A stretch of 30,164 nt of DNA from a virus. The notes below the pieces were generated by a model, which did no database searches, was not told the origin of the DNA, and saw only the letters and a list, made by a program, of their open reading frames with translations. Positions 2,760 to 30,164 of this stretch are shown in pieces (positions within the stretch are counted from its first letter, which is position 1; every line of letters starts with the position of its first letter). The DNA is taken from positions 1 through 30,164 of IMG/VR virus record IMGVR_UViG_3300010297_000050; one strand, given 5' to 3'. Position numbers and translations under genes: made by a program.

Positions 2760-2789
2760 TTGTTAATAACAAAAAAGTATATATATTAG
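2760..2789 (+). promoter_or_regulatory. Bacteroidota-type promoter for the early cluster
   Basis: TTG at 2760-2762 within TTTTG, a 19-base spacer, then TATATTAG at 2782-2789. This matches the Bacteroidota consensus TTG-N19/20-TAnnTTTG with one mismatch. The start of transcription would be near 2796, leaving a leader of roughly 20 bases rich in A before the ATG at 2815. Confidence 0.65.
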
Positions 2790-2800
2790 CATCATAATTA

Positions 2801-2812
2801 AACATTAAAACA
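2801..2812 (+). promoter_or_regulatory. Shared leader element AACATTAAAACA (copy 1)
   Basis: AACATTAAAACA ends two bases before the ATG at 2815. The same 12 bases recur at 3048-3059, 11 of them at 29456-29466 and 9 (ATTAAAACA) at 18641-18649, always close to a start codon. A-rich leaders without Shine-Dalgarno are usual for Bacteroidota. The exact reverse complement occurs at 29383-29394 inside a candidate small RNA. Confidence 0.6.
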
Positions 2813-2814
2813 CT

Positions 2815-3021
2815 ATGACAGTACACGAAACACATTTTAAAGATTCAGTTTTTTATATCAATAGAACAAAAGAAGGTTCTCATAATTACAACAGATATAA
2901 CGAAAAAACTAACAGAGTCTATGAATATGACAATGCTCTTCAATACTATAAGGCACTACAAAAAGCAAAAAAGGTTTACGCAGAAAAAAACATATTTGCT
3001 ACAAGTATTACGAGAGTTTAA
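2815..3021 (+). CDS. Hypothetical early protein (68 aa)
   Basis: 68 residues, polar, aromatic and basic (for example FYINRTKEGSHNYNRYNEK), ending in a helical lysine-rich part. No known family recognised. It is the first gene after a good host-type promoter and is followed at once by an intrinsic terminator, so it forms its own short, probably strong, early unit. Its leader has the longest complementarity to the candidate small RNA at 29368-29427. A host-takeover role is a guess from position only. Confidence 0.75.
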   Translation: MTVHETHFKDSVFYINRTKEGSHNYNRYNEKTNRVYEYDNALQYYKALQKAKKVYAEKNIFATSITRV

Positions 3022-3027
3022 TAAACA

Positions 3028-3045
3028 GGGGCGAAAGCCCCTTTT
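3028..3045 (+). terminator. Intrinsic terminator inside the early cluster
   Basis: GGGGC (3028-3032), GAAA tetraloop, GCCCC (3037-3041), then TTTT. It starts 6 bases after the stop at 3021. Only two bases lie between its T-run and the leader element of the next gene, and no new promoter is visible, so downstream genes probably depend on readthrough. Confidence 0.85.
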
Positions 3046-3047
3046 CT

Positions 3048-3059
3048 AACATTAAAACA
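3048..3059 (+). promoter_or_regulatory. Shared leader element AACATTAAAACA (copy 2)
   Basis: Identical 12-base copy of the element at 2801-2812, five bases before the ATG at 3065 and immediately after a terminator. It probably acts as the translation-initiation leader of the membrane protein gene. Confidence 0.55.
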
Positions 3060-3064
3060 ATTAT

Positions 3065-3199
3065 ATGAGAAAATTTATCAATTACTTAAATAGCATTGAG
3101 GGTACTATGTACGCTATTGCTATCACAGTTGCCTTTTGGGTAGCCATCTTAGATATATTACTAATCACTTATATTATATCAGCATGGTATTTAAAATAA
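3065..3199 (+). CDS. Single-pass membrane protein (44 aa)
   Basis: ATG at 3065 after the A-rich leader. A short basic N-terminus (MRKFINYLN) is followed by one hydrophobic segment at about residues 16-39 (AIAITVAFWVAILDILLI and on). This is typical of small phage inner-membrane proteins. The function is unknown; early membrane proteins of this size can modify the host envelope or exclude superinfection, but nothing here proves that. Confidence 0.65.
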   Translation: MRKFINYLNSIEGTMYAIAITVAFWVAILDILLITYIISAWYLK

Positions 3200-4004: not shown

Positions 4005-4116
4005 TAAATGGCTCTATTATAACGAAGAGTCTAATCAATGCTCAATGTGTGGCACACCCATAAACGAGAGCGAATTATATTGTAGTGGAACTTGTTTTGA
4101 AGCAGACCTAAGATGA
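3994..4116 (+). CDS. Zinc-finger micro-protein (40 aa)
   Basis: ATG at 3994. It contains CSMCGTPINESELYCSGTC, a CxxC-x12-CxxxC zinc-ribbon pattern near the C-terminal end. Its stop overlaps the next start as ATGA (4113-4116), coupling it to the exonuclease gene. Likely a DNA- or protein-binding zinc knuckle. Confidence 0.65.
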   Translation: MDYSKWLYYNEESNQCSMCGTPINESELYCSGTCFEADLR

Positions 4117-4886
4117 GCGAGATAACACTACTAAATGGGGAACGCTTTAAGAAAGACACCCTCATAGATTTATTAAGAGAAGATGAGTTTTACTATGGGT
4201 ATATGGCTAAGGCAGCCCTAAGCTCATCATCAATCAAGATGCTACACCAAAGCCCAAAGAAGTATAAGTTTGTTACAGACTATGGTTCGCCTGAATCTCA
4301 ACCATTAAGAGATGGGTGGTTGTTTCATACAGCAATCTTAGAACCTGATGTATTTAATGACCAAATCTTTGTAGATGTGCAAAGCAAGAACACAAAGAAG
4401 TATAAGGAAGCATTAGCAGAGCATGGCAAAGTGTTCACTCAAAAAGAGAAACGAGATGCTGAAAGGTTAGCTGATGCGTTCCTAAGAAACGAACAGGCAT
4501 TAAGACTCTTAGATAATAGCGAGTTTGAAGTACCTGCCTGTGGTATGATAGGTGGTTATCCCTTTAGAGCAAAAGCAGACGTATTAGGTAAAAACAAAAT
4601 CGTTGACCTAAAGACCACAACTGATATAAAGGGCTTCCCTTACTCAGCTCGTAAGTATGGATACGATATACAAGTGTACATCTACTGCTCATTGTTCAAT
4701 GTACCTTATAGCGAGTTTAAATTCGGTGTAATGGATAAGGGAACTCTTGACATAGCGATATACGATGTATCGGAAGAGTTTTACAATGAGGGTAAAAGAA
4801 AAACACACGAAGCCATAGAAGTTTTTGAAACATTTTTTATACATGGCGCAGATTTAGATAATTACACTTATACAGGTACGCTATGA
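4113..4886 (+). CDS. RecE-like PD-(D/E)XK exonuclease
   Basis: 257 residues. Seen: LRDGWLFHTAILEP with H72, then FRAKADVL with D156, IVDLKTTTD with D165 and K167, then YGYDIQVYIYCS with Q187. This order (His, D, DxK, Q-x-x-x-Y) is that of RecB/RecE/lambda-exonuclease-like nucleases, best matching RecE or exonuclease VIII-like phage proteins. It would resect 5' ends to feed single-strand annealing. No Erf/RecT/Sak-type annealase is recognisable in the window. ATGA overlaps on both sides. Confidence 0.75.
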   Translation: MSEITLLNGERFKKDTLIDLLREDEFYYGYMAKAALSSSSIKMLHQSPKKYKFVTDYGSPESQPLRDGWLFHTAILEPDVFNDQIFVDVQSKNTKKYKEALAEHGKVFTQKEKRDAERLADAFLRNEQALRLLDNSEFEVPACGMIGGYPFRAKADVLGKNKIVDLKTTTDIKGFPYSARKYGYDIQVYIYCSLFNVPYSEFKFGVMDKGTLDIAIYDVSEEFYNEGKRKTHEAIEVFETFFIHGADLDNYTYTGTL

Positions 4887-6545: not shown

Positions 6546-6800
6546 ATGCATGGTGGAGCAAGACAAGGGGCAGGTAGAAAGCCCAAAGCAGACGAATCTA
6601 AATTAGTAGAACGCTTAGATGCAATCATAGATAGTGATACAGCTCTTTCTAAGTTAGGGGAACTCGTATCTAAAGGAGATATGAGAGCAATCCAACTTTA
6701 TCTAAGTTATCGTTATGGTAAGCCAAAAGAGAGTATGGATATCAACTCATCTGAGGGACTAAATATAAACTTTAAGGACTTAATTAAGTTTGTCGATTAA
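6546..6800 (+). CDS. terS: Terminase small subunit
   Basis: 84 residues beginning MHGGARQGAGRKPKAD, the glycine/arginine-rich start common to many small terminase subunits and their relatives. A helical core follows with YLSYRYGKPKE. It lies directly upstream of and overlaps TerL by 11 bases, which supports the assignment. It would recognise phage DNA for packaging. It is short for a TerS. Confidence 0.75.
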   Translation: MHGGARQGAGRKPKADESKLVERLDAIIDSDTALSKLGELVSKGDMRAIQLYLSYRYGKPKESMDINSSEGLNINFKDLIKFVD

Positions 6801-8001
6801 CATACATAAAAAATACCTACCAATATCAACAGATGATAGCAGATACTTTGTTGTTACAGGTGGTAGGGGTTCAGGTAAGTCTTTCTCAATAAATGCCTTG
6901 CTTGTTATACTTACCTATGAGCGAGGGCATACAATCCTATTCACAAGATACACTTTAACATCTGCTCGTATCTCAATCATCCCTGAGTTTATAGAGAAGT
7001 TAGAGCTGATGGATTGTATTGCAGACTTCCACGTTACTAAAGACGAAATAATAAATAGAAAGTCAGGAAGCAAGATAATCTTTAGAGGTATCAAGACAAG
7101 CTCAGGCGATCAGACAGCAAGTCTTAAATCACTCACAGGCATAACGACTTGGGTAGTAGATGAAGCAGAGGAACTAACAGACGAGCAGAAGTTTGACACC
7201 ATTGACCTGTCAGTAAGACAGCAAGGTAAACAGAATAGAGTAATCCTTATACTCAACCCTACAACTAAAGAGCATTTTGTCTATACACGATTCTTTGAGG
7301 ATAAGGGTGTGCAGGAAGGTAGCAATACGAGTAAAGAAAACACCACCTACATACATACTACATACTTAGACAACCTAAACAATCTATCTGAAAGCTACAT
7401 AGAGCAGATAGAACAAATGAAACAACGTAGACCTGAGAAATACAAACAACAAATGTTAGGTTCGTGGATGGCTAAAGCTGAGGGTGTGATATTTGATAAT
7501 TGGACAATAGGCGAGTTTAAAAAGAAAGGTGTAAGCGTATGGGGGCAAGATTATGGGTTTGCAGCAGACCCCTCAACTCTTGTAGAAACAAACATAGATA
7601 CAGATAACAAAATAATCTATCTAAGGGAATGTTTTTACCTGCCACGCCTTACAACCTCAGAGATAGCACAACTCAATCTTAAACACGCTAAGGATGGTCT
7701 TATTGTGGGCGATAGTGCTGAGCCAAGACTTATACACGAGATAAAAGCCAAAGGTTGTAATGTAAAACCATCAATTAAAGGGCAGGGTAGTGTTACCTAT
7801 GGCATATCTTTATTGCAAGACTACGACTTAGTGGTAAGCCCTGATAGTACAAACCTAATTAAAGAGATGAATAATTACAGATGGTTAGAGCGTAAGTCTA
7901 ACACGCCTGTTGATGCTTATTGCCACCTTATTGATGCAATCCGTTATAGCGTAGGATATCAACTGCAAAACCCTAATAGAGGTAAGTACGCTATTCGCTA
8001 A
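6790..8001 (+). CDS. terL: Terminase large subunit (PBSX-type)
   Basis: 403 residues. ATPase: Walker A GGRGSGKS (24-31) and Walker B WVVDEAEEL with D124/E125. RNase H-like nuclease: D254 in GQDYGFAADP, D308 in LIVGDSAEP, D382 in HLIDAIRYS. This is the complete motor plus nuclease of the Terminase_3/PBSX group. The only start giving the full ATPase domain is TTG at 6790, inside the end of TerS. It packages DNA into proheads. Confidence 0.9.
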   Translation: MSINIHKKYLPISTDDSRYFVVTGGRGSGKSFSINALLVILTYERGHTILFTRYTLTSARISIIPEFIEKLELMDCIADFHVTKDEIINRKSGSKIIFRGIKTSSGDQTASLKSLTGITTWVVDEAEELTDEQKFDTIDLSVRQQGKQNRVILILNPTTKEHFVYTRFFEDKGVQEGSNTSKENTTYIHTTYLDNLNNLSESYIEQIEQMKQRRPEKYKQQMLGSWMAKAEGVIFDNWTIGEFKKKGVSVWGQDYGFAADPSTLVETNIDTDNKIIYLRECFYLPRLTTSEIAQLNLKHAKDGLIVGDSAEPRLIHEIKAKGCNVKPSIKGQGSVTYGISLLQDYDLVVSPDSTNLIKEMNNYRWLERKSNTPVDAYCHLIDAIRYSVGYQLQNPNRGKYAIR

Positions 8002-9728: not shown

Positions 9729-10885
9729 TGGCAACAAAGATAAACGTAAGAAGCCCCTTTTATAAGAAAACACAAGACAGCAGTTTAGCGAGTGCTACAA
9801 TGGAGTTATATATTTTTACAGGTGTACTTTCAACAGACAAACCTGCTTCTCCGCAATACACAATAACCAAGAACACAATAGACTCGAATACTTATGTAGT
9901 GTTTGAGATTAGCGAACTTGTAAGGGATTATCTCAATATAGAGTTTGATGGGGAGTATGATAGCCAAACAGTATGGGTTGTTGCTGACATAAATCAATAT
10001 CCTTTAGCTGATGGTGGTGGTACTCTTATAGACACTGATAACGAAAACTATATAGCGTTTGATGGTTATGGGTATTTTCACGAGGGTACGAATCCTGAGC
10101 TGTCAAGAGGTTTGCTACTATCAAACAATACTATATTCAGACTAAACTACGATAATGTAAGAATCCCTGTATTTACAGAGGACACTAACTCAGTAACATT
10201 CTTATACAAAGGAGAAGAAAAACGCACTCAAGCAATAAGCAGCTCTACTAACACAAACGGACAGATAGACTATGTTACAGTAAGTGGTTTAGATGATAAC
10301 GATACATACAAGGAACGAGTTATAAACGATGGTGGCACATTAGAGGATAGCGACTGCTTAGAACGATTTTTAAGTAATTATAATGTAGGCGAAGTAGATG
10401 AGGTTATCGTAAACACAGATGCAGGTGTAGAGGTTGTTAAAATCAATACTATCTATGAATGTAAGTACGAACCCTACAAAGTTACATTCGTAAATAAGTA
10501 TGGAGCTTTACAGGACTTGTGGTTTTTTAAGAAATCAGTAGAATCCACTAACGTAACATCTGAGCAGTTTAAGGCATCTATATTTGACCAATCTACCCTA
10601 AGCTATAAAACATATAAGCACCAACAACAGGCGTTCTTATCTCAGGGCAAGGATAGAATCACGATGAACACAGGGTACGTCAATGATGACCATAACGCTG
10701 TATTAGAGGAACTATTATTAAGTGAGCAGGTATGGTACACAGAGATTACAGAAACAGAGGAACGAGTGATACCTGTTATCCCATTAACTAAGTCAATCAC
10801 ATACAAGACAAGTGTTAATGATAAACTTGCAAACTACACAGTAGATTTTGAACACGCTTTTGATAAGATAAATAACATTAGATAG
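9728..10885 (+). CDS. Tail structural protein (385 aa), probably distal tail
   Basis: 385 residues, beta-rich with many Thr/Asn/Asp, no membrane segment. It lies between the neck proteins and the large tail-tip protein, with a 1-base TAATG junction before and a 1-base TAGTG junction after. Composition and place fit a distal-tail or baseplate component of flavobacterial siphophages. No specific motif recognised. Confidence 0.55.
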   Translation: MATKINVRSPFYKKTQDSSLASATMELYIFTGVLSTDKPASPQYTITKNTIDSNTYVVFEISELVRDYLNIEFDGEYDSQTVWVVADINQYPLADGGGTLIDTDNENYIAFDGYGYFHEGTNPELSRGLLLSNNTIFRLNYDNVRIPVFTEDTNSVTFLYKGEEKRTQAISSSTNTNGQIDYVTVSGLDDNDTYKERVINDGGTLEDSDCLERFLSNYNVGEVDEVIVNTDAGVEVVKINTIYECKYEPYKVTFVNKYGALQDLWFFKKSVESTNVTSEQFKASIFDQSTLSYKTYKHQQQAFLSQGKDRITMNTGYVNDDHNAVLEELLLSEQVWYTEITETEERVIPVIPLTKSITYKTSVNDKLANYTVDFEHAFDKINNIR

Positions 10886-28102: not shown

Positions 28103-28238
28103 TTTTTCAATTATACTATTATTCCCCACCTCGTTCATAACAGGTATATCTTATTATCCTGCGACAGGTAGGTACAAATTTGATGAGCTGAATATATACT
28201 TATTTTTCATTCAATTACAATTTAGAAAGTATGAGTAA
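28095..28238 (+). CDS. Small protein beside lysis genes (47 aa)
   Basis: ATG at 28095 overlaps the endolysin end by 8 bases and the holin start by 8. A hydrophobic start (FSIILLFPTSFITGISYY) is followed by YKFDELNIYLFFIQLQFR. Proteins with 'F/DELNIYL...IQF' are recurrent next to lysis genes of Bacteroidota phages, from memory. A lysis-accessory role is inferred from place. Confidence 0.55.
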   Translation: MRSFSIILLFPTSFITGISYYPATGRYKFDELNIYLFFIQLQFRKYE

Positions 28239-28680
28239 AAAGAAGTTTAAGGACACGAAGGTAGGTAGATTCTTAACTTCTGTGGGTTCTACGCTTGGCG
28301 ATGGAATGGGCGATATATTGCCCGACAATGGTGTTTTAGGCGTGTTTAAGCGACTTATAGCAAAAGATGATACACTTACCCCACAAGACAAAGAAACTGC
28401 CTTAAAACTGCTTGAAATGGATTCTATGGAGATTCAGGAAGTAAGTAAGCGTTGGCAGTCTGATATGGCTTCTGATAGTTGGTTAAGCAAAAATGTACGT
28501 CCTTTAACCCTTGTGTACCTTACCCTTGCGACTACGATTTACATTGTGCTTGATAGTTTAAACATAGCGTTTGATATAGACCAAGCGTGGATAGAGTTGC
28601 TTAAAACTCTGTTGGTTACAATCTATGTGGCATACTTTGGTAGCAGAGGTTTTGAAAAATATAAAAAAATCACTAAGTAG
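28231..28680 (+). CDS. Holin, 3TM / GTA-holin-like (149 aa)
   Basis: 149 residues. A soluble N-terminal half (LGDGMGDILPDNG, then EIQEVSKRWQSDMASDSWLS) precedes KNVRPLTLVYLTLATTIYIV and LLKTLLVTIYVAYFGSR. The 'RW..DM.SDSWLSKNVRPLTL' segment is characteristic of the 3TM holin family (gene-transfer-agent holin, PF11351-like). It would open the membrane for the M15 endolysin. Followed immediately by the AT tract. Confidence 0.75.
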   Translation: MSKKKFKDTKVGRFLTSVGSTLGDGMGDILPDNGVLGVFKRLIAKDDTLTPQDKETALKLLEMDSMEIQEVSKRWQSDMASDSWLSKNVRPLTLVYLTLATTIYIVLDSLNIAFDIDQAWIELLKTLLVTIYVAYFGSRGFEKYKKITK

Positions 28681-28783
28681 TATATATATATATAATAATA
28701 TACTTTAAAATAGTATAATAATATAATATAATAATATAATATAAAAAAATAATTAGTATATTTATATATATATATATTTATAA
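28681..28783. repeat. Nearly pure A/T tract with alternating TA runs and tandem repeats
   Basis: Only three G/C bases in about 103. It contains TATATA runs at each end, an inverted repeat AGTATAT...ATATACT at its left side, and two tandem copies of a 13-base unit ATAATAATATAAT at 28715-28727 and 28728-28740. The tract would melt easily, so it could be a replication origin or DNA-unwinding element, or simply a barrier between late and early units. No gene is encoded in it. Confidence 0.7.
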
Positions 28784-28793
28784 AGCAAAAAAA

Positions 28794-28964
28794 ATGAAAT
28801 TTGATTTAAAAATAGATTACTTAGGTAAAAAAGAACTTAAAGGGGATACAGAGAAAGATATGTACGATCTAACTTTCAAAACATATAACTCTGAAATAAG
28901 GGGTAAGTTTGAGAAGTCAGAGATACGCCATATTATCCAAATCTTAGATAACGCAGTTGTCTAA
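28794..28964 (+). CDS. Hypothetical protein (56 aa)
   Basis: ATG at 28794 after an A-run. 56 residues: MKFDLKIDYLGKKELKGDTE, then MYDLTFKTYNSEIRGKFEKS, then IRHIIQILDNAVV. Short alpha/beta fold, no motif. It overlaps the NinG-like gene by 8 bases, so it is probably co-translated with it. Confidence 0.6.
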   Translation: MKFDLKIDYLGKKELKGDTEKDMYDLTFKTYNSEIRGKFEKSEIRHIIQILDNAVV

Positions 28965-29355
28965 AAAGGTATCACGTAAAAATCTTGTAAAGCGTTTAGA
29001 TAATATCTTTAGTCAGTACATACGACTTAGAAACGCTAATGCTCTTGGTATAGCTGAATGTTATACCTGTGGTGTTAAAAAAAATTGGAAGCAGTTACAA
29101 AATGGACACTTTCAAAGCAGGAAGCACTACGGAACGAGATGGGATGAAACAAACTGCCAAGTACAATGCTCTGCTTGTAATGTGTTTAGATATGGCGAAC
29201 AGTATAAGTTTGGGCTAAGGTTGGATAAAGACTATGGGCAGGGTACAGCAGAGGACTTACACGCTAAAGCCATACAGATCACTAAATACTCAAATAACGA
29301 CTTACAAGAGTTAATAACTAAATACACAGCTCTTGTCAAAAAGAAAATGAAATAG
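28957..29355 (+). CDS. NinG-like recombination protein
   Basis: 132 residues with ECYTCGVKK (C35, C38), QNGHFQSRKHYGTRWDETNC (H51, C67) and QCSACN (C71, C74). The 'CxxC...GHF..R...RWDE.N...QC..CN' pattern matches lambda NinG/Rap, a structure-specific endonuclease family acting on recombination intermediates. The start is TTG at 28957, overlapping the gene before; no ATG lies upstream of the motif. It pairs logically with the RecE-like nuclease. Confidence 0.8.
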   Translation: MSKKVSRKNLVKRLDNIFSQYIRLRNANALGIAECYTCGVKKNWKQLQNGHFQSRKHYGTRWDETNCQVQCSACNVFRYGEQYKFGLRLDKDYGQGTAEDLHAKAIQITKYSNNDLQELITKYTALVKKKMK

Positions 29356-29363
29356 TATCTTTG
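29333..29363 (+). promoter_or_regulatory. Strong Bacteroidota-type promoter for a short RNA
   Basis: TTG (29333-29335), exactly 20 bases, then TATCTTTG (29356-29363) and C. This is a perfect match to TTG-N19/20-TAnnTTTG, the best in the window. It lies over the end of the NinG-like gene and starts transcription near 29369, only about 58 bases before a terminator. Confidence 0.75.
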
Positions 29364-29367
29364 CAGA

Positions 29368-29427
29368 GTACATATCCTGTACTGTTTTAATGTTATGATT
29401 AAGGGGGGTGCTTTGCCCCCTTTTTTT
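29368..29427 (+). ncRNA. Candidate antisense small RNA (~58-60 nt)
   Basis: It starts close to a hairpin GTACA-TATCC-TGTAC (29368-29382), then has a single-stranded stretch TGTTTTAATGTTATGAT (29383-29399), and ends with the terminator hairpin. TGTTTTAATGTT is the exact reverse complement of the leader AACATTAAAACA used by the 2815 and 3065 genes (11 of 12 at 29473). No convincing protein is encoded; the only small frame is 12 codons ending after the terminator. A minus-strand reading (leader plus a 20-codon frame) is an alternative. Confidence 0.5.
29403..29427 (+). terminator. Intrinsic terminator of the candidate small RNA
   Basis: G-run (29403-29408) pairs with CCCCC (29416-29420); the inner part can add GC-TTT-GC. 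Seven T follow (29421-29427). Confidence 0.85.
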
Positions 29428-29443
29428 ATTTAAAAATAATTTA

Positions 29444-29466
29444 TATATTTACACCAACATTAAAAC
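29444..29466 (+). promoter_or_regulatory. Probable promoter -7 element and leader copy 3 before the 29473 gene
   Basis: TATATTTA (29444-29451) resembles TAnnTTTG with one mismatch, but no TTG lies at the right distance upstream. AACATTAAAAC (29456-29466), 11 bases of the shared leader, ends six bases before the ATG at 29473. Confidence 0.45.
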
Positions 29467-29472
29467 TTTATT

Positions 29473-29655
29473 ATGCAATTCAATTTAAATACCGAACAGC
29501 AAGATGCGATACTCTACGCTGTATCACACACACTCGCTAACAAAGGCGATATGTCAGATCAAACCCTAAACGACTTGTACGATGTACTCGATATGTTTAA
29601 GATAGAAGAGAATAAACGATACGGATTATATAGTGGAACTCATGAGGGACTTTGA
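29473..29655 (+). CDS. Hypothetical protein (60 aa)
   Basis: 60 residues, helical: LNTEQQDAILYAVSHTLANK, then DQTLNDLYDVLDMFKIEENK. No motif recognised; small helical proteins like this are frequent at the start of early phage units. Its leader carries the 11-base shared element, so it may be under the same control as the 2815 and 3065 genes. Confidence 0.7.
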   Translation: MQFNLNTEQQDAILYAVSHTLANKGDMSDQTLNDLYDVLDMFKIEENKRYGLYSGTHEGL

Positions 29656-29656
29656 T

Positions 29657-29752
29657 ATGGCACGATTAGAAAGTATGAGCAATAGAATATTAGAATTAGA
29701 AGCTCATATAGAAATTTTAGAACAACAATTAGAATTATATTATGCAGAGTAA
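29657..29752 (+). CDS. Coiled-coil peptide (31 aa)
   Basis: ATG at 29657, two bases after the previous stop; an in-frame ATG at 29642 would add five residues. Sequence is a single leucine-zipper-like helix (ILELEAHIEILEQQLELYY). It overlaps the next gene by 11 bases. Function unknown. Confidence 0.5.
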   Translation: MARLESMSNRILELEAHIEILEQQLELYYAE

Positions 29753-30104
29753 AATCACTCAAATAGAACCGAAAGGTACATATACAAACGCATCAGGTAC
29801 TTTCAATAAGTATCAGGTGTATCTCGCAAATGGCAATAACTATCAGTTTTTAGCCAAAGGCGAATTTAAAAAGCAGGTAGGCGAAACTATCGACTTTGAA
29901 ATCACGAATGAGCAATACAACACAGCGAAGCTCATCTACAACAAACCCATACAAGCAGCACCGACTGCAAACAGAGAACAAATTATTGTTCGTCAAAGTA
30001 TGGTAAAAGCTGCTGCGGACTTTCACGCATCAAGACCAAACGCAGATATACAAACAGTAATAGCAGATGCGCAACTATTAATAAACTTTGTGAACAATGG
30101 GTAG
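29742..30104 (+). CDS. Probable OB-fold, single-strand-binding-like early protein (120 aa)
   Basis: 120 residues. The first about 65 form alternating strands (KITQIEPKGTYTNASGTFNK, YQVYLANGNNYQFLAKGEF, VGETIDFEI), consistent with a small OB fold. The rest is helical (REQIIVRQSMVKAAADFHAS and on), reminiscent of C-terminal parts of phage ssDNA-binding proteins. It directly precedes the DUF3127-like gene, overlapping it by 8 bases. Assignment is by pattern and context only. Confidence 0.55.
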   Translation: MQSKITQIEPKGTYTNASGTFNKYQVYLANGNNYQFLAKGEFKKQVGETIDFEITNEQYNTAKLIYNKPIQAAPTANREQIIVRQSMVKAAADFHASRPNADIQTVIADAQLLINFVNNG

Positions 30105-30164
30105 TATTATTGGAACTGTCAAACGAGTAGGACAAACAACTACAAAAGGTAATTATCAATTCAG
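30097..30164 (+). CDS. DUF3127-like protein, N-terminal part (3' truncated by window edge)
   Basis: ATG at 30097 overlaps the previous stop. The 22 readable residues MGSIIGTVKRVGQTTTKGNY-QF look like the first strand and turn of DUF3127-like proteins. The rest of such a protein (GDHVEVQYNLRGREW and on) is what opens this window, so both pieces probably belong to one gene of a circular or permuted genome, with roughly 30 codons missing. Confidence 0.55.
   Translation, partial: MGSIIGTVKRVGQTTTKGNYQF

Follow-up and report, generated by a model that had tools for sequence, protein, structure and literature searches.

An apparent tiny RNA in phages of marine Flavobacteria-type bacteria, with an exposed stretch complementary to the starts of several early genes of the same phage

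Introduction

What is encoded in the short stretch that follows the ninG gene of a phage genome, where a sequence recurs that is found, in opposite orientation, ahead of several genes of the same phage? The locus lies in the virus record IMGVR_UViG_3300010297_000050, whose whole length of 30,164 bases was analysed and is called the window here; genes are named after the position of their first base. Judged against relatives, the window (1-30164) is a near-complete, circularly permuted phage genome, and in one relative (G001) window end and window start are only ~87 nt apart. Owing to the circular permutation, genes 2815 and 3065 are placed ~3.5-3.8 kb downstream of the locus. The landmarks are as follows.

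28231-28680: holin-like gene, upstream neighbour
28957-29355, plus strand: ninG/Rap endonuclease gene (Pfam and PHROG matches, homologue search), the constant upstream neighbour of the predicted RNA
222-1130: helicase-like gene of the early/replication region, downstream of the RNA on the circular map
4113-4886: exonuclease gene of the early/replication region
6790-8001: terminase gene, beyond the early/replication genes

The nearest cultured relative by terminase (54%) is the Nonlabens phage P12024L/S, and hence the host is probably a member of the Flavobacteriia. A host search in genome contigs via ninG or terminase gave no match, and the region 28790-30164 had no nucleotide similarity to known phages. 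Further observations concern the surroundings. A sigma-factor-like protein (1127-1624; phrog_1740, E 5e-7) could time late genes, and the annotation of P12024L gp35 includes sigma-70 region 2. The early region also holds a weak match, above cutoff, to the MjaI restriction endonuclease (PF09568; 1956-2600). A stretch of ~100 bases of nearly pure A/T (28681-28790), which separates the holin-like gene from the following ORF, is a possible replication origin.

Results

A predicted promoter, RNA and terminator behind ninG

Promoters of the Bacteroidota follow the consensus TTTG/TAHHTTTG with a spacing of 4-5 nt between box and transcription start (PMC6847099). A box of this type begins right after the ninG stop codon TAG (29353-29355), and the following elements were assigned.

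29333-29363, plus strand: Bacteroidota-type promoter (TTG at 29333-29335, 20 nt, TATCTTTG at 29356-29363)
29368-29427, plus strand: predicted small RNA of ~58-60 nt (promoter and terminator, fold, architecture in class A)
29367-29383, plus strand: 5' hairpin AGTACA-TATCC-TGTACT (folding; stem differs between relatives with pairing kept)
29384-29394, plus strand: single-stranded seed GTTTTAATGTT (invariant columns, unpaired in most folds, complementary to leaders)
29401-29427, plus strand: G-C rich intrinsic terminator (called at 29401-29423; stem varies in sequence, kept in relatives)

The plus strand of the window contains 26 TAnnTTTG boxes, among which only that of the promoter at 29333-29363 is noncoding and accompanied by a TTG at a distance of 17-23 nt. 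The initial annotation had named this the best host-type promoter, a statement that holds by the Bacteroidota consensus and fails in an E. coli-type promoter scan, where it reached only 9/12 and was not top-scoring. That scan yielded no excess over shuffles and was set aside as uninformative for this host type. With the published spacing of 4-5 nt the RNA would start at 29368/29369 and thus be ~58-60 nt long; promoter box, terminator and fold are in keeping with the short transcript of about 58 bases that had been proposed. It is predicted to fold into a hairpin, an open stretch and the terminator, with an energy of -20.9 kcal/mol (z = -3.5, 0/200 shuffles). A comparison with Rfam gave no match at the gathering threshold, the best weak matches being far below the thresholds.

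Conservation in close relatives

Homologues of ninG were aligned at their stop codons, and 38 loci (L004-L040, L054) constitute class A. All 38 contain, in this order, the box, the 5' hairpin, the core GTTTTAATGT, the terminator and the next gene, whose leader includes AACATTAAAAC. The core is invariant, the base following it being C in L021. In most related loci the promoter box is located 0-8 nt past the ninG stop. Both flanking hairpins are rewritten in sequence while the fold is preserved; the 5' stems AGTACA/TGTACT, GTGTTC/GAACAC, TATCCTA/TAGGGTA, TGTTCA/TGAGCA and GTCTG/CAGAC all pair. Structure was read from per-sequence folds because the MAFFT alignment misplaces the hairpin arms. In an alignment of 13 sequences, the 11 seed columns are invariant with variable columns on both sides. 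An invariant seed between stems that are rewritten yet paired is the pattern expected for an RNA that would use both its fold and its seed.

At the edge of the seed, the base in the RNA covaries with that in the leader (C/G in 11 cases, T/A in seven, one U-G and one C/A; Fisher 8e-4, uncorrected for relatedness and with L031, C/T, omitted). The targets predicted for class A are the gene right after the RNA (~60 aa), a 44-aa protein and inserted small ORFs including 2815; some class A phages have one or two targets only in the sequence covered.

Complementarity to leaders in the window

The targets predicted in the window are listed here.

29444-29472, plus strand: target leader 1 (box TATATTTA at 29444-29451, predicted transcript start 29456, motif AACATTAAAAC at 29456-29466)
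29473-29655, plus strand: predicted target gene 1 (60 aa), first gene past the RNA, conserved in class A
2782-2814, plus strand: target leader 2 (box TATATTAG at 2782-2789, motif AACATTAAAACA at 2801-2812)
2815-3021, plus strand: predicted target gene 2 (68 aa), a lineage-specific ORF between an old promoter and gene 3065
3048-3059, plus strand: target leader 3, motif AACATTAAAACA (exact 12-mer match)
3065-3199, plus strand: predicted target gene 3, encoding a small hydrophobic protein of 44 aa; conserved in class A

Exact copies of the 12-mer AACATTAAAACA are present at 2801-2812 and 3048-3059 (plus strand) and at 29383-29394 (minus strand), and 29456-29467 is identical to it in 11/12 positions; these matches had been reported at the outset and were reproduced. 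The RNA stretch has a leader-complementarity score of 13 against 1.0±1.5 in dinucleotide shuffles (0/300 as high), and none of the 10,009 other windows in a plus-strand scan equalled it. When both strands were scanned, 15/15,032 windows reached the score. This control is less stringent, because a minus-strand window that is antisense to some other leader gets a high score as a matter of course. By cofold energy, the leaders of genes 2815 (ddG -12.0), 29473 (-10.8) and 3065 (-10.1) hold ranks 1, 2 and 3 among 52 gene starts. Genes 2815 and 29473 had no Pfam or PHROG match and gene 3065 no Pfam match.

Two further proposals of the initial annotation were abandoned. The first extended the pairing with the 2815 leader across the start codon. 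Additional pairing of 2791-2797 and 2821-2825 is possible on paper and in a cofold model; however, it is neither specific, as 13/200 shuffled seeds did equally well, nor conserved. Gene 2815 is a lineage-specific insertion. Given the box at 2782-2789, the 2815 transcript would start near 2794, leaving 2791-2797 partly outside of it. The second derived the RNA from an inverted copy of the 2815 leader; relatives that lack 2815 still carry the RNA, so that such an origin is rejected.

At the site of gene 2815, relatives lack the ORF or have another one in its place. The leader of the 3065 orthologues reads TATATTTG-TATAACATTAAAAC[G/A] in most class A relatives. This leader is the older one, from which that of 2815 seems to have been copied locally. 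The region 2782-3064 forms a cassette hot spot with differing small ORFs between one promoter and the 44-aa gene; other inserts occur in L015, L016, L035 and L036, each ORF with its own copy of the leader motif. The insert of the window (gene 2815) closes with a GGGGC..GCCCC hairpin ahead of the next leader.

Coevolution of RNA and leaders across phage clades

Other phages with a related ninG possess a different RNA at the same place, often matching their own leaders. Examples are CACTAAAACAA in six leaders of G024, AAAACAAAACAAA in four leaders of G013, GATAAACAATAAAAACT in G015, and TTAAAAGACAA in up to eight leaders of L146, L152 and L155. The longest matches comprise 18 nt (L152), 17 nt (G015, G013) and 16 nt (G004, G006, L146). 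In a phylogenetic tree of NinG, classes A, TGTC, C and K form one clade each. In classes TGTC, C and D, the match is retained at orthologous helicase genes though both partners have changed in sequence. A separate observation on L146, L152 and L155 is that up to eight leaders per phage within up to 6.7 kb past ninG, that of the replicative helicase included, share the near-identical TTAAAAGACAAAATTATG.

RNAs and leader sets were exchanged among phages in a swap test, whose data points lack independence where phages are related. In the discovery set (18 phages; regions delimited by hand), own pairs scored 230 against 64±20 for permuted pairs, with a maximum of 151 in 5000 permutations. In the held-out set, with regions cut by script, own pairs scored 198 against 77±24 (p=1e-4). 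A plus-strand scan of 22 phages found the place of the RNA unrivalled within the covered sequence in 14 (window, G006, G013, G018, G023, G024, L142, L143, L146, L152, L155, L190, L193 and L195), a fraction that is not an estimate of prevalence because the 22 were mostly picked among phages with a signal. As the leaders are A-rich and the RNAs U-rich, each of these scores owes part of its value to composition, for which shuffles and swaps control only partly; composition alone as the full explanation was ruled out by the shuffles, the swaps and the plus-strand scan.

Seven phages with the same ninG neighbourhood (L149, L160, L163, L177, L184, L194 and G016) had no leader match, and in six (G008, G010, G011, G019, G022 and G025) it was no better than in shuffles. 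The box after ninG is missing in several phages of these two groups. Box and terminator are otherwise conserved, except that class B RNAs match leaders without a clear promoter box and could therefore be 3' ends of ninG. The element seems widespread in this phage group yet not universal, or may have moved or changed in some phages.

Cultured phages

P12024L (L201) contains TATATTTG (9826), followed by CAACGTGTTTTTAATTGATTCTTTTGTATTTA and a terminator (9826-9896), placed after the holin gene and not after ninG. For this candidate RNA, leader matches are seen at gp25 (12 nt) and, on the other strand, at gp58 (11 nt); 6/1000 mononucleotide shuffles were as good, an optimistic figure since the site was picked as a top-scoring place. 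A counterpart of the RNA in P12024L is probable, which makes the RNA directly testable. The cultured NinG phages P12002L, lillamy9-7, RAP44, BS-TP2 and OP947163 have no such RNA after ninG, where the next gene directly adjoins.

Discussion

Judging from sequence comparisons, the element most probably encodes a trans-acting antisense phage sRNA that blocks the translation start of an early-gene regulon. That a short phage RNA is antisense to several leaders and may block their translation, as first suggested, is supported by conservation, by the conserved fold and by coevolution with the leaders. The predicted pairing of the RNA with the leaders is strongly supported, whereas we infer its expression, repression by pairing and the timing. 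The RNA would have a host-type (Bacteroidota sigma-A) promoter to itself just past ninG, and transcription would stop at the intrinsic terminator ~60 nt on. The accessible seed, complementary to start regions of mRNAs encoded elsewhere, would pair over 11-18 nt with the A-rich motif that a set of genes of the same phage share in their leaders. The usual position of this motif is 3-8 nt ahead of the start codon, and in many cases this is where the predicted mRNA begins. The duplex would withhold an unstructured A-rich region from the ribosome, and cover over -3 to -18 should block initiation. Translation initiation in F. johnsoniae requires adenines upstream of the start and a lack of structure (PMC6847099), and pairing at starts by the sRNA GibS represses; the expectation of repression is drawn from these two observations. 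As phage DNA copies rise, the RNA would rise with them and turn down early and replication genes; such a dosage-coupled shut-off of early genes is our first guess at its purpose.

Four other explanations were weighed. The 12-mer may be a DNA operator, a repressor or activator site of the phage near gene starts, with the ninG copy as a site in opposite orientation. The motif indeed often covers positions +1 to +12 as predicted from a TAnnTTTG promoter, and a DNA site too would coevolve with its own copies. Yet the orientation is always sense in leaders and antisense after ninG, the motif lies a few nt from the ATG even within operons, as in class TGTC (3-5 nt), and the ninG copy is flanked by two fold-conserved hairpins that a DNA site would not need. 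We regard an operator as improbable, though foremost among the alternatives.

Next in rank and very unlikely is an RNA that mainly hits A-rich host leaders and shuts off host translation. Leaders of this kind are typical of these hosts (PMC6847099) and PreS of lambda acts on a host gene (PMC12197685), but the seed is matched to leaders of the phage itself and shifts with them from clade to clade.

Pairing might, with lower probability still, activate or stabilise its targets, e.g. by keeping the 5' ends of mRNAs from being degraded. The motif is often found right at a predicted mRNA start (4-5 nt spacing, PMC6847099), so that the duplex would cover the 5' end; it would, however, also mask the -3 to -18 region required for initiation, and GibS pairing at start regions represses (PMC7366714).

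Least credible is a cis element whose hairpins and terminator end the ninG transcript and whose seed silences the next leader on read-through until its own promoter fires, for although the next gene in class A has an 11-nt match ~60 nt downstream, distant leaders match equally or better (3.5-3.8 kb off on the circular map of the window), most targets in other clades are kilobases away, and a promoter box is present at the ninG stop.

The preferred reading, a trans-acting antisense sRNA, has relatives among known systems. The c4 RNA of P1/P7 pairs around the ribosome-binding site of the ant mRNA, blocks its translation and is the basis of P1/P7 heteroimmunity (PMC12197685). Both are phage RNAs that pair, here by prediction, with phage mRNA at the translation start. 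In contrast to c4 with its ant target, up to eight leaders across the early region are predicted here, and the RNA is a separate one with its own predicted promoter and terminator. No antirepressor match was found for genes 2815 and 29473 (Pfam and PHROG) or 3065 (Pfam). GibS of Bacteroides thetaiotaomicron is a trans-acting sRNA with an unstructured seed that represses by pairing at translation initiation regions (PMC7366714). The present RNA would share trans action in Bacteroidota and an unstructured seed for initiation regions, with repression deduced by analogy, but it is phage-encoded, whereas GibS is host-encoded, has metabolic targets and carries its seed in an extended 5' portion. OOP and aQ of lambda and sar of P22 are antisense RNAs of phages, too, and their pairing dampens genes of the phage (PMC12197685); each is described for one gene and not for a regulon with shared leaders. 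PreS (lambda) and VpdS (VP882) are trans-acting sRNAs of phages that favour phage replication (PMC12197685). They differ in binding Hfq and in their targets, the host dnaN for PreS and phage and host RNAs for VpdS; a homologue of Hfq or ProQ is not obvious in Bacteroides (PMC7366714). A search of open-licence papers retrieved no description of such an RNA. Phage antisense RNAs are known; the papers and Rfam searched yielded none from phages of Bacteroidota that coevolves with a leader common to a regulon.

The literature found has little on how phages of Bacteroidota regulate their genes post-transcriptionally, and the hosts of these phages do not use Shine-Dalgarno sequences (PMC6847099). With an sRNA that coevolves with a shared leader, a phage could switch a whole set of genes by simple means, in several clades including the replicative helicase, and such an sRNA offers a computable rule by which the RNA behind ninG predicts the regulon of its phage. 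RNA-based heteroimmunity, as with c4 of P1/P7, may be the most interesting alternative purpose. Seed classes differ by clade, and we put forward, as a tentative and rather doubtful idea, that the pair of seed and leader is a phage-specific code, that among phages of one seed class the early and replication genes are mutually repressed, and that clades diverge by switching the code. If so, any cassette that gains the leader would join the regulon, and the RNA would provide heteroimmunity or superinfection exclusion in phages of Bacteroidota.
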